The translations under genes were made by a program, and so were the position numbers. From an uncultured Spirochaetia bacterium (GTDB taxonomy: Bacteria > Spirochaetota > Brachyspiria > Brachyspirales > Brachyspiraceae), in contig CAMRCO010000011.1 in NCBI GenBank assembly GCA_947040945.1, positions 1-36,730 of the forward strand: a stretch of DNA of 36,730 nt, given 5' to 3'. Positions 5,488 to 13,888 of the stretch are shown here, piece after piece; the stretch's first letter is position 1, and every line of letters begins with the position of its first letter. The notes below the pieces were generated by a model. The model did no database searches and was not told the origin of the DNA. It worked only from the letters and a program-made list of their open reading frames with translations.

Positions 5488-5557
5488 ACAAGCTCATGTT
5501 TAACATAGTGTTTTCCGTTAATGCTTATAGAACTAATTAAATTTGGAGATATTTAAG

Positions 5558-6409
5558 ATGAAACATATAACTTTTATTGCCTTTTTGTACGTTGTAATGG
5601 CATTGCCTGTTTATTCTTACGAAGCAGTACCTATTAAGTACTGGGATATAGTGTACGGTTCAACTATTGACGAAGTAAATGAAAAGCTTGTTGAGGCACA
5701 GATAATAACTGCTGCTATTGTGCCTGAAGAAGGTACATTATATGTAAGTCCTTATGCTGATCCTGATTTTACTTGGTATAATTATGCTTTGTCAGAATGG
5801 ATAAATATTACTTTTACTACAAGAAAGATAGAGGAGGTTTTTACAAGAGACACTTCTATTTTGCATTTTTCAAGACCTAAAGATGGCGAAGTAAAACGTA
5901 TTACAGTTAAAGGTTCTGACTTGGGAGCGAATGCTAATTCAGCTGTAGGGGATAGTACTCTTTGGGTTTATAGACTTTATTTTTATAATGATAAGCTTTT
6001 TACTGTGAGTGCGAGATATGAAAATGCTACTGTTATAAAAAGAACTAAAGCTCTAAATGATTATGAGTATGCTAATCCTGGATATGTTATGCATAAAGAA
6101 TTGTTTAAAAGAACATTAGGTTTAATGCATAATAAACTTGGTGGTTTTCATAGACAAAATACAAAAACTTTAGATGAATACACAACATTGTATTATGGTG
6201 GTTTTGAATCTCCTAATACGGGTACATTTGTTTCAGTATTTTATGGGGATAGCTTTAATGGTAAGTTTAATTATACGATTACTTTTGCTGATAATTTTTA
6301 TCTAAATACAATAGCTAAGAGATTCCAAAGAGGAAGCTATGAGCCCGGAACTGCTGGAAGTGATGTTCCTATTGAACTAGATAATGACTTGCCTGTATTT
6401 ATGGATTAA
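5558..6409 (+). CDS. Hypothetical exported protein
   Basis: Signal peptide MKHITFIAFLYVVMALPVYS; GGAG Shine-Dalgarno at 5545-5549 supports the ATG at 5558 rather than the TTG at 5543 used in the track. Confidence 0.65.
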   Translation: MKHITFIAFLYVVMALPVYSYEAVPIKYWDIVYGSTIDEVNEKLVEAQIITAAIVPEEGTLYVSPYADPDFTWYNYALSEWINITFTTRKIEEVFTRDTSILHFSRPKDGEVKRITVKGSDLGANANSAVGDSTLWVYRLYFYNDKLFTVSARYENATVIKRTKALNDYEYANPGYVMHKELFKRTLGLMHNKLGGFHRQNTKTLDEYTTLYYGGFESPNTGTFVSVFYGDSFNGKFNYTITFADNFYLNTIAKRFQRGSYEPGTAGSDVPIELDNDLPVFMD

Positions 6410-6434
6410 AAGTTAATATAATAATAATTTTTCT

Positions 6435-6472
6435 AGAGACATTTAATTTATTTTAAGTGTCTCTATTTTTTT
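6435..6472 (+). terminator. Rho-independent terminator
   Basis: AGAGACATTTAA tttatt TTAAGTGTCTCT (12-bp stem with one T-G pair) followed by ATTTTTTT. Confidence 0.85.
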
Positions 6473-6626
6473 ATGTTTTAAGTCTAAAGTTTTTAATGCT
6501 TTTATTTAATAGGTTCGATAAGTGTAAAATCTTGTAACAATAATTAGTAAATATTTATTTCTATTTTTTATTTTATTTGCCATAATGATTAATAGTTTTA
6601 ACCTGTAGTATTTTAGTTTTATATAA

Positions 6627-6660
6627 TACCATAGACGAAAATGATGTTTTGTCTATGGTA
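6627..6660. repeat. Inverted repeat at the putative start of a small ORF
   Basis: TACCATAGAC - 14 nt - GTCTATGGTA, perfect 10-bp arms. Confidence 0.6.
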
Positions 6661-6906
6661 AATAATGATTATAATTCTGCAAGTAATATAGCTTTTCTTC
6701 TTGATGTTTCTGAAGTATTAGAAGATTATGCTAAAAAGATATCGGTAAATAATCTCAAAGATTCTCTGATGTTGCAAAATGATACAGCACAATTGGTCAA
6801 AGACAATCAAGAGTTTAGTGTATATGTGAGCTTATTAATAAAAGGTAATATAATTATAGTTAGAAAATGTGAAAAAGTATCAGACTTAAACTTGCTGCTT
6901 GCTTAG
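6649..6906 (+). CDS. Small hypothetical ORF, possibly a gene remnant
   Basis: 85 aa with TTG start and no convincing RBS. The frame is open upstream to 6589, so the true start is uncertain. Confidence 0.3.
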   Translation: MSMVNNDYNSASNIAFLLDVSEVLEDYAKKISVNNLKDSLMLQNDTAQLVKDNQEFSVYVSLLIKGNIIIVRKCEKVSDLNLLLA

Positions 6907-6949
6907 AAGAACATTTTTCTCATTCTTTGGAGAAAGTATTTGAATAGAC

Positions 6950-6985
6950 TAATAAAAATGTTAGAATAGCTTGACATTTTTATTA
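6950..6985. repeat. Perfect inverted repeat upstream of the TonB receptor remnant
   Basis: TAATAAAAATGT - 12 nt - ACATTTTTATTA, perfect 12-bp arms. Confidence 0.6.
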
Positions 6986-6990
6986 AAAAG

Positions 6991-7008
6991 TGTTAGGTTG
7001 ACCTAACA
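6991..7008. promoter_or_regulatory. Putative metal-regulator operator (DtxR/IdeR-like palindrome)
   Basis: TGTTAGGT-TG-ACCTAACA, 8-bp perfect arms with 2-nt centre, next to iron-uptake genes; core TTAGGTTxxCCTAA resembles DtxR/IdeR boxes. Confidence 0.45.
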
Positions 7009-7012
7009 TATA

Positions 7013-7713
7013 AAATATGTGTTTTAACAACTGCAAATGGGTCAGCTATATCTTCAGGGCGTTTTGGAAAGCAAGTTTCTTTACGTGGTTTTGATACTCA
7101 AAATGTAGTAGTTGTTATTGATGGATAAAGGGTCGAAACACCAAGTCATCATGGTTTTGAAATATTAAGAAGTATTCCTGTATCAATGATTGAAAGAATA
7201 GAAATACTTGAAGGAGCTAGTTCATTCCTATGGGGAAGTGACGCTATGGGTAGTTTTGTATATATTCAAACAAAACAAGGAGCATGTACAAAAGGTTTAT
7301 CTGGTTCTTTTGGGGCAAGTTATGGGAATAATTTTGAATTAATGGGACAGGTAATAAAACAAGACCATATATGAATCTAAGTTATGGTTTTGAAAATTAT
7401 TCTATAAATAGCACTAGTGAGGCATTTGTTGTTTGGTATATTAATGAGATATTCACGCTAAAAGATGGCTATAATTTTAACTTAGGAAATCCAAACTTAA
7501 AACCTGAAAATGCTTGGAGTTATGAAGGAACAGTTGAATTCTATCCTACAGATGGATTAGTTTTTTTAGTGGGTATTTTTAGAACTGATGCTACAGACCT
7601 TATTGAAAATGTTGATGCTGGTGTGTCTGTGGTTATGGGCAAAAAATGTTAGTGATGCTGATATTGACAAAGAAGGAATTAATTGTCTATTTGGTTTCGA
7701 TTTATACTTTTAA
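7013..7713 (+). pseudogene. TonB-dependent outer-membrane receptor, degraded
   Basis: Plug fragment SGRFGKQVSLRGFDTQNVVVVIDG*RVETPSHHGFEILRSIPVSMIERIEILEGASSFLWGSDAMGSFVYIQTKQG with in-frame TAA at 7126-7128. A barrel fragment in another frame (NFNLGNPNLKPENAWSYEGTVEFYPTDGLVFLVGIFRTDATDLIENVDAG) is followed by a further frameshift (NVSDADID). Start codon, signal peptide and most of the barrel are missing. Confidence 0.85.
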
Positions 7714-7742
7714 ATCTTAATATTGTAAAAAATGCAGTGATA

Positions 7743-7787
7743 AACTTATTTGTTACAATATAATACAATTATGGTAACAAATAAGTT
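7743..7787. promoter_or_regulatory. Large perfect dyad enclosing a TATAAT element upstream of the ABC importer
   Basis: AACTTATTTGTTAC - aaTATAATacaattatg (17-nt centre) - GTAACAAATAAGTT, perfect 14-bp arms. Confidence 0.6.
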
Positions 7788-7806
7788 ATTAATAGAAAAA
7801 AACTAT

Positions 7807-8799
7807 ATGGATACTACAATTAAATATTATAAATATTCTTTTGCTATGTTTTTGTTGATAGTCATTTTATCAATTGTTTCACTTTTTGTTGGAGTAATTG
7901 ATATATCACTAGAGGGAATATTAAATAGTGATTTTAAGCAAATTAATATTTTGCTTATTTCTCGTCTACCTAGACTATTAGCTATTTTTTGTGCGGGTAT
8001 TGGTATGAGTGTAGCAGGACTTATTATGCAAAATTTATGTATGAATAAATTTGTTTCCCCTTCTACAAGTTCAACCATTGCTTTTGCTCAATTTGGAGTA
8101 CTACTATCATTAATTTGGTTTAATGGTTTAGTTTTATGGCAAAAAACAACTATTATTTTTATAATTTCAATAATGGGGACATGGATTTTTATTTGGTTTA
8201 CGCAGAAAATTAAATTTAAGAATATAATTATGGTTCCACTCATTGGTATTATGTTTGGAAATGTAATTGGTGGGATTACAACTCATTTTGCCTATACTCA
8301 TGGAGTTATGCAATCATTAAACTCGATACTTGTAGGTGACTTTTCTTTAATTATTAGAGGAAGATATGAAATAGTATTTTTAGTTATACCACTAATTATT
8401 ATTTCGTATATTTATGCGAATCATTTTAATATTGTGGGTCTGGGTGAAGATTTTTCAAAAAATTTAGGAGTAAATTATAAAAAGATTTTATTTTTAGGTT
8501 TATCTATTGCCGCACTTATAACGACAAGTATTGTAATTACTGTTGGAACTATATCTTATCTTGGTTTAATTGTTCCAAATATTGTATCTATGTTTCGTGG
8601 AGATAAAATTAGAGGAAATCTTTTAGATGTTTCTTTGTTTGGAGCGTTATTTGTTCTTGTATGTGATATTTTGGGTAGGATTTTGATATATCCTTATGAG
8701 CTACCTATAGACTTGATTACAGGTGTTGTGGGGAGTTTTATTTTTCTTATGCTTATGCTTAAAAATTTAAGTCCTACTGTAAAGGTAAAAAATAAATGA
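7807..8799 (+). CDS. FecCD-family iron/siderophore ABC transporter permease (1)
   Basis: Multi-spanning FecCD permease motifs (RLPRLLAIFCAGIGMSVAGLIMQNL, GTISYLGLIVPNIV). Start could be 7771 or 7750; neither has a strong RBS. Confidence 0.9.
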   Translation: MDTTIKYYKYSFAMFLLIVILSIVSLFVGVIDISLEGILNSDFKQINILLISRLPRLLAIFCAGIGMSVAGLIMQNLCMNKFVSPSTSSTIAFAQFGVLLSLIWFNGLVLWQKTTIIFIISIMGTWIFIWFTQKIKFKNIIMVPLIGIMFGNVIGGITTHFAYTHGVMQSLNSILVGDFSLIIRGRYEIVFLVIPLIIISYIYANHFNIVGLGEDFSKNLGVNYKKILFLGLSIAALITTSIVITVGTISYLGLIVPNIVSMFRGDKIRGNLLDVSLFGALFVLVCDILGRILIYPYELPIDLITGVVGSFIFLMLMLKNLSPTVKVKNK

Positions 8800-9755
8800 T
8801 TAAAACTATATATGCAAAAAAAATGCTTATTATAGCTATATTGACATTAATTCTTATTTTAGTTTATCAATTTATTTTTGTTGATATGGATTTTTTATAT
8901 TATGCTATGTATATAAGAACACCAAAACTTATAGCTATGATTATAGCCTCTTTTTGTATTGGTTGTGCAAGTATAGTTTTTCAATCTATTATAAATAACC
9001 GAATTGTAACACCTTGCCTTTTGGGGATGAATGCTTTGTATATTCTTGTGCATACTTCTATAGCATTTGTTTTTGGAGTATCAAGTGTTTTTTTATCGAA
9101 TAAGAATATATCTTTTACTATTGATATAGTATTAATGTCATTTGTATCTACAACGGTTTATAGTTTTCTATTTCGTAAAACAAAATATAATATTTTATAT
9201 GTACTTTTGTCAGGTACAGTAATGGCAACATTATTTAGAAGTATATCAAATACTTTAATACGAACTATTGACCCTAATGAATATGATGTGCTTCAGGCTA
9301 GTTTAATTGCAGGGTTTTCTGATGTGAATAGTGATATTATTTTAATGTCAGTTATAATTATAATTTTTGTTATTTTTATATTTAGAAAAGAGATAAAACT
9401 GTTAGATGTAATTACATTAGGTAAAAATCAGTCCATAAACTTAGGTGTAGACTATGATAAAACTATAAGCAAGCTTTTACTTGGTGTAACGCTTTTTATT
9501 ACAGTTGCAACAGCTTTAGTAGGTCCAATTTCTTTTTTAGGTTTAATCATTGCTAATCTATCAAGAGAATTATTTAAAACTTATCGCCATTCATATTTAA
9601 TGATGGGTTCGTTTTTAATTGGCGTTATTGTGCTTATTTTTGGGCAAATTCTTATTGAACATGTGTTTTCATTTAACACAGTAATTTCTGTTTTTATTAA
9701 TCTTTTTGGTGGAATATATTTTTTATACTTAATTCTAAAAAACAAAGGCATGTAA
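8796..9755 (+). CDS. FecCD-family iron/siderophore ABC transporter permease (2)
   Basis: RTPKLIAMIIASFCIGCASIVFQSIINNRIVTPCLLGMNALY and GPISFLGLIIANLSR; 4-bp ATGA overlap with the preceding gene. Confidence 0.9.
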   Translation: MIKTIYAKKMLIIAILTLILILVYQFIFVDMDFLYYAMYIRTPKLIAMIIASFCIGCASIVFQSIINNRIVTPCLLGMNALYILVHTSIAFVFGVSSVFLSNKNISFTIDIVLMSFVSTTVYSFLFRKTKYNILYVLLSGTVMATLFRSISNTLIRTIDPNEYDVLQASLIAGFSDVNSDIILMSVIIIIFVIFIFRKEIKLLDVITLGKNQSINLGVDYDKTISKLLLGVTLFITVATALVGPISFLGLIIANLSRELFKTYRHSYLMMGSFLIGVIVLIFGQILIEHVFSFNTVISVFINLFGGIYFLYLILKNKGM

Positions 9756-9758
9756 TCT

Positions 9759-10511
9759 ATGAAAATTAAATTATTAAATAAATCTTATGGTTCAAATAAA
9801 ATTGTAGAAGATGTTAGTTTTAAATTACCACGTGGCAAAGTAATTTCTTTTATAGGACCAAATGGTGCTGGAAAATCTACAGTTTTAAATATTATTACAA
9901 GGTTAGTAAAAAAAGATAGTGGAGAAATTGAATTTGATAATAAAAAAATGGAAAAATGGAAAAGTAATGAATTATCAAAAAGGCTTGCTATTCTAACGCA
10001 AACTAACAATATAACAATGAAACTTACTGTAAAAGAACTCGTGTCTTTTGGTAGATTTCCTTATAGTGGAAGTAATCTGACAAAAGAGGATCATGATAAA
10101 GTTTATGAAGCTATAAAATATATGGAGCTTCTCGAACTTGAAAATAGATTTATTGATGAATTATCAGGTGGGCAAAGACAACGTGCTTATATTGCTATGG
10201 TAATTGCTCAAGATACAGATTTTGTATTTTTAGATGAGCCTACTAACAGTTTAGATATATATCACTCATCAAATATGATGAAAATACTTCGTAGATTATG
10301 TGATGAATTTGGGAAGACTGTTATTTTGGTACTGCATGAAATTAATTTTGCTGCTACCTATTCTGATTATATAGGGGCATTCAAAGACGGAAAATTATAT
10401 AAATTTGATGAGGTATCAAAAGTCATAACAAGTGAAACCTTAAAAGAATTATATAATGTAGATTTCTCTATTAAGATGATAAACGGCAAACCAATTTCGA
10501 TTTATTACTAG
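9759..10511 (+). CDS. Iron/siderophore ABC transporter ATP-binding protein
   Basis: Walker A GPNGAGKST, signature LSGGQRQRA, Walker B FVFLDEPTN. Confidence 0.95.
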   Translation: MKIKLLNKSYGSNKIVEDVSFKLPRGKVISFIGPNGAGKSTVLNIITRLVKKDSGEIEFDNKKMEKWKSNELSKRLAILTQTNNITMKLTVKELVSFGRFPYSGSNLTKEDHDKVYEAIKYMELLELENRFIDELSGGQRQRAYIAMVIAQDTDFVFLDEPTNSLDIYHSSNMMKILRRLCDEFGKTVILVLHEINFAATYSDYIGAFKDGKLYKFDEVSKVITSETLKELYNVDFSIKMINGKPISIYY

Positions 10512-10573
10512 TTAATATAAAGGTTAGACTATAGCCTATTATATAATAATATACTTCAAAGGAGATTTTAAAA

Positions 10574-11521
10574 ATGAAAAAAATATTTTATATTATTTTT
10601 ATGGTTGTTATGAGTATGTCTTTTTTAGCTTGTGCTTCTAATGATATAGACACAAAGGCAGAAATGATTGTAATACAAGTGGATAATGGAAAAAAAGAAA
10701 TGATAGACGTAGAGGTTCCATTTGATCCACAGAGAGTAGTTTGTTTAAATTATATTTCTATTGATATTCTTGATAAGTTGGGACTTGGAGACAGAATTGT
10801 AGGTATGATTAAAAATGGTTCTGTTCCTGAGCATCTTAAAAAATATGAAGATAATGAGAACATTGCTAATTTAGGTGGAATGAAAGATATTGATATGGAA
10901 GCTTTAATGGCATTGCAGCCTGATATAATACTATCAAGTGATAGAACTGCCTCAAAATATAATGAGTTTATAAAAATCGCTCCAACTGTGGCTTCTTATA
11001 TTGATTATAAAAAAGGTTTTTATAATGGATTTAAAGAAAATGTTCTAAAACACACCACTATTTTTAATAAAAGTAATGAAGTGGAGGTAATTATAGCAGA
11101 TTATGACAAAAGGATTAAAGCATTAAAAGAAAAGAGTAGTGGTAAAACTGCTATATTGGGTATTTTCTCTGGTGGAACATTTAATACATTAGGCAATAAT
11201 GGGCGTATTTCTATTATAACTACTGACTTGGGATTTGAGAATACTGCTTCTGATATTGATGTAAACCATGGTAATATTTCATCTTATGAATTATTGCTAG
11301 CTAAAAACCCTGAGTATATTTTTGTATTAGATAAAGATACTGCTGTCGGTGCAGAGGCTAAATCGGCAAAAGAAATGCTTGATAATGAACTCGTACATCA
11401 GACTGAAGCATATAAAAATAACAATATCATATACTTAGAGCCGGGTGGGGTTTGGTATTTAGCAGATGGAGGAATTACCTCAATGGATATTATTCTTAAA
11501 AATTTAGAGAATTCTATTTAA
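10574..11521 (+). CDS. Iron/siderophore ABC transporter substrate-binding lipoprotein
   Basis: Lipobox (MSFLAC), periplasmic-binding fold motifs (DPQRVVCLNYISIDILDKLGLGDRIVGM, LGGMKDIDMEALMALQPDIILSS), AAGGAG RBS. Confidence 0.92.
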   Translation: MKKIFYIIFMVVMSMSFLACASNDIDTKAEMIVIQVDNGKKEMIDVEVPFDPQRVVCLNYISIDILDKLGLGDRIVGMIKNGSVPEHLKKYEDNENIANLGGMKDIDMEALMALQPDIILSSDRTASKYNEFIKIAPTVASYIDYKKGFYNGFKENVLKHTTIFNKSNEVEVIIADYDKRIKALKEKSSGKTAILGIFSGGTFNTLGNNGRISIITTDLGFENTASDIDVNHGNISSYELLLAKNPEYIFVLDKDTAVGAEAKSAKEMLDNELVHQTEAYKNNNIIYLEPGGVWYLADGGITSMDIILKNLENSI

Positions 11522-11624
11522 ATGCTTAGAGTTTTATTTTATCTGAATAGTAAGCAAATGTATTTTTCATAAAACATAATAAAAAAGAGTTGTTATTTTC
11601 TAAAAAAGGATTGCAGAACTTTAA

Positions 11625-12281
11625 GTGCTAGTAAAAAAACTTTATGAGGGAAATATCAAAACAACATCTAAAGAGGTAATGCTAACTCCTACATTAAAAG
11701 CGAAGTCCACGCATAATTTTGAAAACGGTACTAGTCATAATACGAAAACTATTAATGTTAGTATAGTCATGATTAAGAGTAGTTCTCCACCGCCTGATTA
11801 TTATATGGAAGATATTAATTTTGAAATTGAAAATAAGTTTATAGATGCAGCTTGGAAAATATATTGGCTTTGATATAGTTTTTTATGTGGTAGTGATTCT
11901 GATATAGATAGTGTTGTAGATTTAGATGTTACAGCAGGTGTTCGTTATCAATTAAATATTCGTGATGCGTCTGGTTTTTCGAATACAAATCCTTTACATT
12001 CACTTTTTCCTGAAGTAGGTATAGTATTAAAATCTGTTGATATGCTTACTATTAAAGGTCATGGTGAAATATTAGATATTTTTGAAAAAGATATTGAAAC
12101 TATAATTGACTTGGAACTTGCGAGAATAAGTTTTTATTTTTTAATACTTGTTGATAACTCTAAAGTAATGGATATTATGACAGAGGAACAGTTTAGTAAA
12201 ATCAATGATATAAATTATGAATATCAAAAGTTTGCTTTAATATTAAAAAAGTTAAAATCTTATAGTATGCTAATTAACTAG
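11625..12281 (+). pseudogene. Hypothetical ORF interrupted by a single in-frame TGA
   Basis: ORFs 11625-11873 and 12042-12281 share one frame. The only stop between them is TGA at 11871-11873; the intervening sequence reads YSFLCGSDSDIDSVVDLDVTAGVRYQLNIRDASGFSNTNPLHSLFPEVGIVLKSVD. Confidence 0.5.
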
Positions 12282-12436
12282 TATATAATAATAGTTTTTT
12301 TCTAGACTAATATAATTTAAGTTTTTTTTGTTAATGACATAGCATGCGAGTAGAATCAAAATAATATATGTCATTTACTTTGCAAAAAAGTATTTATTGT
12401 GATATCATTGTAAGAAATATAATATAGGATTTTTGT

Positions 12437-13888
12437 ATGAAATTAACAGATTTAACTATAAAGCAAGTACATGAGAAGTTGTACAAAAAAGAAATTAGTA
12501 CTAAAGAGCTTTTAGAAAGTGTGATTAATGCGGTTAAGGAAGACGATAAAAGAGAAGATAAAATATATTCTTATATAGAATTATTTGAAAGTGATGCATA
12601 TAATCAGGCAGAAAAAGCTCAAGAGAAAATAAACAAAGGCGAAACTTTGCCTCTATTAGGTATTCCTGTATCAATTAAAGATAATATTTTGTACAAGGGT
12701 CATTTAATGACAGCTTCAAGTAAAATGCTTGATGGATATGTCGCTCCATATACATCTCCTGTTGTAGAAAGGCTTATAGAAGCTGGTGCTATAATTGTTG
12801 GTAGAACTAACATGGATGAATATGCTATGGGTGGCACAACTGAGACATCAATATATGGCGTTACAAGAAATCCTCGTAACAGAAATTATGTGCCCGGTGG
12901 TTCATCAGGTGGTTCTGCTGCAAGTGTTGCTGGTAATTTTTCTTTTGGCTCTTTAGGTAGTGATACTGGTGGGTCAGTTAGACAACCCGCTTCTTTTTGT
13001 GGTGTTGTTGGAGTTAAACCTACTTATGGACGTGTGCCTCGTGAGGGCTGTGTTGCTATGGCTTCAAGCCTAGATCAAGTAGGAACATTTGGAAAAGATG
13101 TTTATGATGCTGCTTTAATGACAAAAGTGGTGTCAGGTTATAATAAAAAAGAGTCTACAACACTAAATATTCCTGTAGGTGATTATGATAAGGCTAATGA
13201 AAAAGATATTTCTGGTGTTAAAATAGGATTGCCTATTGAATATTTTGAGTCTAATTTAATATGTGCTGATGTTAGGAGAAATGTTGAGCAATCTATAAAA
13301 AATTTAGAAAAAAATGGTGCAAAAATAGTAAATATTAATCTTCCTCACTCTAAATATGGCTCTATGGTTTATACTGCTGTAATGTGTCTTGAGGTAGCGA
13401 GTAATATGGGGCGTTTTGACGGAATAAGATATGGTTTTCATCCTCAGGGCGACTTCAATCTTGAAGAATACTATATTGAAGCTAGAAGTAAATCATTTGA
13501 TTTTGAAGCTAAGGCTAGAATTATTTTCGGTAGTCTTTTAGCGGGTAATAAATGCTTTGAAAGTCATTATAAACATGCTTTAAAAGTTAGAGCTCTTATG
13601 CAGGCTGATTTTGAGAATGCTTTTAAGGAAATAGATGTTATAATTTCCCCAACAACACCTGTTACAGCTTCTTTGCTTGGTTCTCGTGACCAAACTGAAA
13701 CAGAATTAAACTTTTTAGCAGATAGTTATACATCAAATATTAACTTGGTGGGTCTTCCTGCGATGAGTGTTCCTTGTGGAGTTGATGGTAATGATATGCC
13801 TGTGGGGCTACAAGTTATAGCTAATAAATTTGAAGAGAGTACTATGTTTAGTGTTGCCTATGCGCATGAACGTTTGCTTAATTCTTAG
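12437..13888 (+). CDS. gatA: Asp-tRNA(Asn)/Glu-tRNA(Gln) amidotransferase subunit A
   Basis: Amidase signature: GIPVSIKDNI, GRTNMDEYAMGGTTETS, PGGSSGGSAASVAG, GSDTGGSVRQPA. Confidence 0.96.
   Translation: MKLTDLTIKQVHEKLYKKEISTKELLESVINAVKEDDKREDKIYSYIELFESDAYNQAEKAQEKINKGETLPLLGIPVSIKDNILYKGHLMTASSKMLDGYVAPYTSPVVERLIEAGAIIVGRTNMDEYAMGGTTETSIYGVTRNPRNRNYVPGGSSGGSAASVAGNFSFGSLGSDTGGSVRQPASFCGVVGVKPTYGRVPREGCVAMASSLDQVGTFGKDVYDAALMTKVVSGYNKKESTTLNIPVGDYDKANEKDISGVKIGLPIEYFESNLICADVRRNVEQSIKNLEKNGAKIVNINLPHSKYGSMVYTAVMCLEVASNMGRFDGIRYGFHPQGDFNLEEYYIEARSKSFDFEAKARIIFGSLLAGNKCFESHYKHALKVRALMQADFENAFKEIDVIISPTTPVTASLLGSRDQTETELNFLADSYTSNINLVGLPAMSVPCGVDGNDMPVGLQVIANKFEESTMFSVAYAHERLLNS

Follow-up and report, generated by a model that had tools for sequence, protein, structure and literature searches.

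The 36.7-kb window (the whole stretch of DNA that was analysed) carries a four-gene operon with intact reading frames and, directly upstream of it, a long perfect dyad that encloses a promoter-like sequence (Table 1). The earlier note had placed this dyad before an iron ABC operon, and the Pfam matches bear this out, since the genes directly downstream form a FecCD-type ABC operon, of the siderophore type by its nearest models. Note that all the NCBIfam siderophore-type models were below their curated cut-offs, and for this reason a siderophore is only the candidate substrate. As occurs with the VctPDGC, SstABCD and YclNOPQ siderophore ABC operons, two FecCD permeases, an ATPase and a binding protein are encoded together; unlike in those systems, the receptor gene is decayed here and the upstream control region is different. 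In the collections scanned, the closest homologues of the operon were those of Ferrimonas senticii (permease 70%), Epulopiscium genomes (60-66%) and an Anaerobiospirillum MAG (55%), while a genome of the same genus contained only a 27% paralogue. The plasmid-borne relatives include a vctD-annotated gene with 44% identity. A palindrome, GCTAATTAGTATATGCTAACTAGC, is present upstream of the Anaerobiospirillum permease homologue (L045:485-584) and is possibly a DtxR-like iron box.

Table 1. Features of the insert and, in the last eight rows, long dyads at other loci (L numbers) of the same genome
Feature	Coordinates	Strand	Basis or remark
Insert relative to relatives	6475..12380	.	ends approximate, estimated by eye
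Heavy-metal P-type ATPase fragment	6649..6906	+	profile match
DtxR-like palindrome TTAGGTTGACCTAA	6993..7006	.	precedes decayed TonB receptor
Decayed TonB-dependent receptor	7020..7714	+	tblastn with Ferrimonas receptor (two pieces); Pfam barrel fragment
Promoter-like match GTGATA-N16-TATAAT	7737..7764	+	10/12; left arm in spacer, -10 in loop
Dyad left arm AACTTATTTGTTAC	7743..7756	.	reaches 7760 with one mismatch
Dyad right arm GTAACAAATAAGTT	7774..7787	.	reaches inward to 7770 with one mismatch
FecCD permease 1 (VctD/SstA/YclN-like)	7807..8799	+	Pfam FecCD E 8.5e-58; probable start ATG 7807
FecCD permease 2	8796..9755	+	profile match
ABC ATPase, FecE-like	9759..10511	+	nearest NCBIfam model FecE, below curated cut-off
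Periplasmic binding protein	10574..11521	+	nearest NCBIfam model SstD (catechol siderophore), below cut-off
Recurrent dyad	L105:16195-16244		
Recurrent dyad	L121:8843-8885		
Recurrent dyad	L059:1804-1848		
Recurrent dyad	L112:16552-16594		
Recurrent dyad	L109:9644-9684		
Recurrent dyad	L070:16043-16091		
Recurrent dyad	L070:4004-4045		
Recurrent dyad	L065:14716-14749		

An insert with gene relics around the operon

In three family members (G001, G005 and G017) the gene found here at 5543-6409 and gatA (12437) are adjacent, approximately 180-260 bp apart; in the host they are separated by about 6 kb. Since the flanking genes are directly joined in the relatives, the dyad is part of an acquired insert and not of the conserved chromosome. 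On the left side of the insert, the 5543 gene seems to have kept its native terminator. The presence of the nearest operon homologues in Ferrimonas and Epulopiscium suggests, from sequence comparison, that the insert was transferred across phyla.

Upstream of the operon the insert contains relics. The plug of the TonB receptor is interrupted by an in-frame stop, the gene seems to be frameshifted and parts of the barrel are missing; just before the P-type ATPase fragment there is a near-perfect 14-bp dyad of its own (6627-6660; TACCATAGACGAAA and TTTTGTCTATGGTA, 6 nt apart). At the other end, between the binding-protein gene and gatA (11625-12290), more coding remnants are found, unassigned and possibly decayed. 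No regulator gene was recognised within the insert. The DtxR-like palindrome that precedes the receptor relic is perhaps, judging by its sequence and position, the old regulated promoter of a receptor-led operon. TTAGGTTGACCTAA has no other perfect copy in the genome, and this single copy is intergenic; most of its one-mismatch matches lie in or at coding sequence and look like chance, and one is near a contig end. We thus rejected a DtxR-type regulon around this site.

The start of the first permease determines how the dyad lies relative to the coding sequence. The first codon of most orthologues aligns 2-4 codons past ATG 7807, or with it, and the 12 extra residues that a start at ATG 7771 would add have no support among the homologues, so translation probably starts at 7807; ATG 7771, which had also been put forward as a candidate, is disfavoured by the alignment. 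Note that the dyad counts as coding in the output of the ORF caller, which had taken a TTG at 7750 as the start. No Shine-Dalgarno sequence precedes either ATG, and one is present in most of the other window genes checked and in most permease orthologues. The TATAAT begins exactly 12 nt before ATG 7771, and in genes of this kind, without a Shine-Dalgarno, -10-like hexamers are slightly enriched at 12-13 nt, although the neighbouring distances are raised too. A leaderless start at 7771 is therefore not favoured, since the homologues do not support the 12 extra residues and the hexamer excess is not confined to that distance.

Geometry, rarity and conservation of the dyad

The arms are perfect 14-bp reverse complements separated by a 17-nt spacer, which contains TATAAT (7759-7764), exactly as the earlier note had described. 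If one mismatch is tolerated, the arms grow to 18 bp (7743-7760 and 7770-7787, 94%) around a centre of 9 nt. This is the sole dyad of the window with perfect arms of at least 13 bp, and Markov simulations of the window (orders 1 and 3, 12 per order) generated no arms longer than 12 bp. To place it in the genome, we counted the perfect dyads with arms of at least 12 bp and 3-30 nt between them in the window plus 793 kb of other stretches (829 kb in total). Twelve had arms of at least 14 bp, the one in the window included, compared with approximately 0.05 expected from dinucleotide-shuffled intergenic DNA of the same 829 kb. The dyad is not explained by base composition alone, as had been proposed. 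Dyads of this length are non-random yet recurrent in the host genome, hence not exceptional: at one per approximately 69 kb, one would be expected in about half of all stretches as long as the window.

Neither the genome itself nor 40 relatives contain a further copy with up to 3 mismatches, and no matches to the arm pair were found in viral contigs. Since a second site is absent from the genome, the dyad does not define a regulon. The lack of further copies in the genome also discards a dispersed repeat (REP or MITE), and a regulon sharing only the inner core was rejected because TTGTTA-N13..22-TAACAA occurs at 6 places in the genome, compared with 14 for the reversed control. Conservation in orthologous loci, the lack of which the earlier note had listed among the points against its proposal, was not observed: dyad-like arms were found upstream of 0/6 of the closest homologous permeases and operons. 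A literature search with the arm sequence returned no paper that appeared relevant.

Known regulator sites and the other long dyads of the genome

The operators of DtxR/IdeR-type iron regulators have a TTAGGTTAGSCTAACCTAA-like consensus. The arms of the dyad differ from it, and a DtxR/IdeR-type operator was discarded for this site; the insert does carry one DtxR-like palindrome, the one at 6993, which the dyad does not resemble. The BirA operator (TTGTAAACC-N14/15-GGTTTACAA) differs in both arms and spacer and was also rejected. Moreover, the dyad has no resemblance to the Fur consensus GATAATGATnATCATTATC (PMC545781), so the previous statement that the arms do not obviously match Fur or the DtxR-like motif stands.

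The dyad has a partial likeness to the NikR operator of the delta-proteobacteria, GTGTTAC-[N13/14]-GTAACAC (PMC545781), which shares with the dyad its TGTTAC/GTAACA half-sites and a place before a metal-type transporter operon. The dyad sequences TTGTTAC and GTAACAA agree with these half-sites at 6/7 positions each, the first base being T instead of G. The spacer is 17 nt here, not 13/14, the transporter is of the siderophore type, and the 98.7% complete host genome gave no match to NikR_C (PF08753), a domain that the same search finds in control genomes. The spacer together with the absence of a detectable NikR led us to reject a nickel operator, to which we now attach almost no weight.

As mentioned above, the host genome contains other dyads of this kind: AT-rich, with perfect arms of 13-17 bp, located upstream of genes, mutually unrelated in sequence and far more frequent than in shuffled DNA. 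Their neighbours include arsR-family, lexA, response-regulator, cytidylate kinase and solute-binding-protein genes. The long dyads are found mainly in intergenic DNA that separates intact genes, not in relics; in convergent gaps some resemble terminators, and those in divergent or tandem gaps mostly have no T run and are unrelated in sequence. The nearest match in layout to the window dyad has 17-bp arms over TTGACA-N17-TATATT, covers -22 to +27 and lies 10 nt before an arsR-family regulator gene, which is followed by a P-type ATPase. By analogy, it is placed as expected for the operator of an autorepressor. Like the operators of ArsR/SmtB-family autorepressors, the window dyad is long, AT-rich and lies over a putative -10 and a predicted start; unlike them, it has arms of unrelated sequence and belongs to an operon without a regulator gene.

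Do all these dyads work in the same way? Other long dyads, for instance at the lexA and response-regulator genes, lie upstream of, or between, predicted divergent promoters and therefore outside those predicted transcripts, which favours DNA-level elements for the class. By contrast, the transcript predicted at L112 would include the dyad, which makes this a mixed class. The G001 stretches sampled mostly lacked the orthologues with which the conservation of these other dyads could be judged. One could propose that the window dyad belongs to a genome-wide class at promoters, with arms of 13-17 bp and a centre of 6-23 nt, that shares geometry and not sequence and would be read by its shape (as a cruciform, or by a hairpin-binding protein); we consider this quite improbable.

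Operator, hairpin or debris

Our preferred reading, to which we assign a probability of about 0.40, is that the dyad is an operator of the ordinary kind over a replacement promoter of the iron-uptake operon. The two-fold symmetric dyad would overlap the GTGATA-N16-TATAAT promoter of the intact VctDGCP/SstABCD-like operon, with a predicted start at about 7771, just ahead of the right arm, so that it would span -28 to +16. If a repressor dimer or tetramer occupied both arms, the spacer, the -10 and the transcription start would lie beneath it and the operon would be turned off. This candidate promoter may have taken over from an earlier one, close to the palindrome at 6993, that would have fed the now-decayed receptor gene. 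In favour of the operator are the non-random nature of the dyad, its overlap with a 10/12 promoter match, the like layout at the arsR-family gene and the position of other long dyads outside their predicted transcripts; against it are the poor -35, the lack of a second site in the genome and of a recognised regulator gene in the insert, the absence of a similar dyad before the operon homologues, and arms that are longer than most repressors need. The suggestion that the TATAAT is a -10 thus agrees with this match, but matches of this level are common, since the AT-rich window contains 46 of at least equal score on both strands. Because the match is weak against this background and no regulator was identified, we keep the probability of the operator where it is.

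The same dyad could act in RNA. Intercistronic stems act as processing or stability barriers, and a stem of 14-18 bp could play this role between the upstream and permease RNAs, in a longer transcript coming from near 6993 through the receptor relic. Note that an RNA started from the TATAAT, at about 7771, begins past the left arm and cannot fold the stem, which forms only in read-through RNA. The earlier note had proposed both a protein over the -10 and a hairpin in the transcript; each is possible, but for one and the same TATAAT-started RNA the two are incompatible. The plus strand folds with -16.4 kcal/mol (z -5.5; 0/200 shuffles were as good), and the hairpin ends 19 nt ahead of ATG 7807, leaving those nucleotides free; on the other hand, the minus strand folds nearly as well (z -4.6), as in any DNA palindrome. 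In 2/6 homologous operons the gap in front of the permease contains a stem without a U run, after the TonB receptor in Ferrimonas (z -2.7) and after the binding-protein gene in Epulopiscium Nuni2H (z -5.4). Both differ from the window dyad, the other 4/6 homologues have no intercistronic stem of this kind, and with the 3' end of the receptor missing the window stem cannot be shown to be ancestral. Since this reading also demands approximately 750 nt of read-through of the relic from a putative promoter, we regard the barrier as possible, but rather doubtful. Two other RNA elements were rejected: an intrinsic terminator, since there is no U run on either side of the dyad and the terminator scan was silent on it, and an Rfam leader or riboswitch, since a covariance-model search of 6300-12500 gave one sub-threshold chance match, located elsewhere.

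Template-switching palindromes are established mutation events in bacteria, and the dyad could be debris without present function that template switching, or a rearrangement, left behind in the decaying upstream section of the island. It sits among gene relics, is unique and is not conserved, and the lack of the Shine-Dalgarno that most window genes and orthologues have argues that the region has been rearranged. The arms have nevertheless stayed perfect in a region that gathered stops and frameshifts, which suggests a recent origin or selection, and relics are not where the long dyads of this host cluster. We judge this explanation about as probable as the hairpin.

Taken alone, the dyad matters little, as one candidate operator of an acquired iron-uptake operon; of more general interest is the excess of long, sequence-diverse dyads at the promoters of this host. 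If the operator over a replacement promoter is real, the locus would be an example of a transferred siderophore-transport operon that gained a new control region after the loss of its receptor gene and its first promoter.
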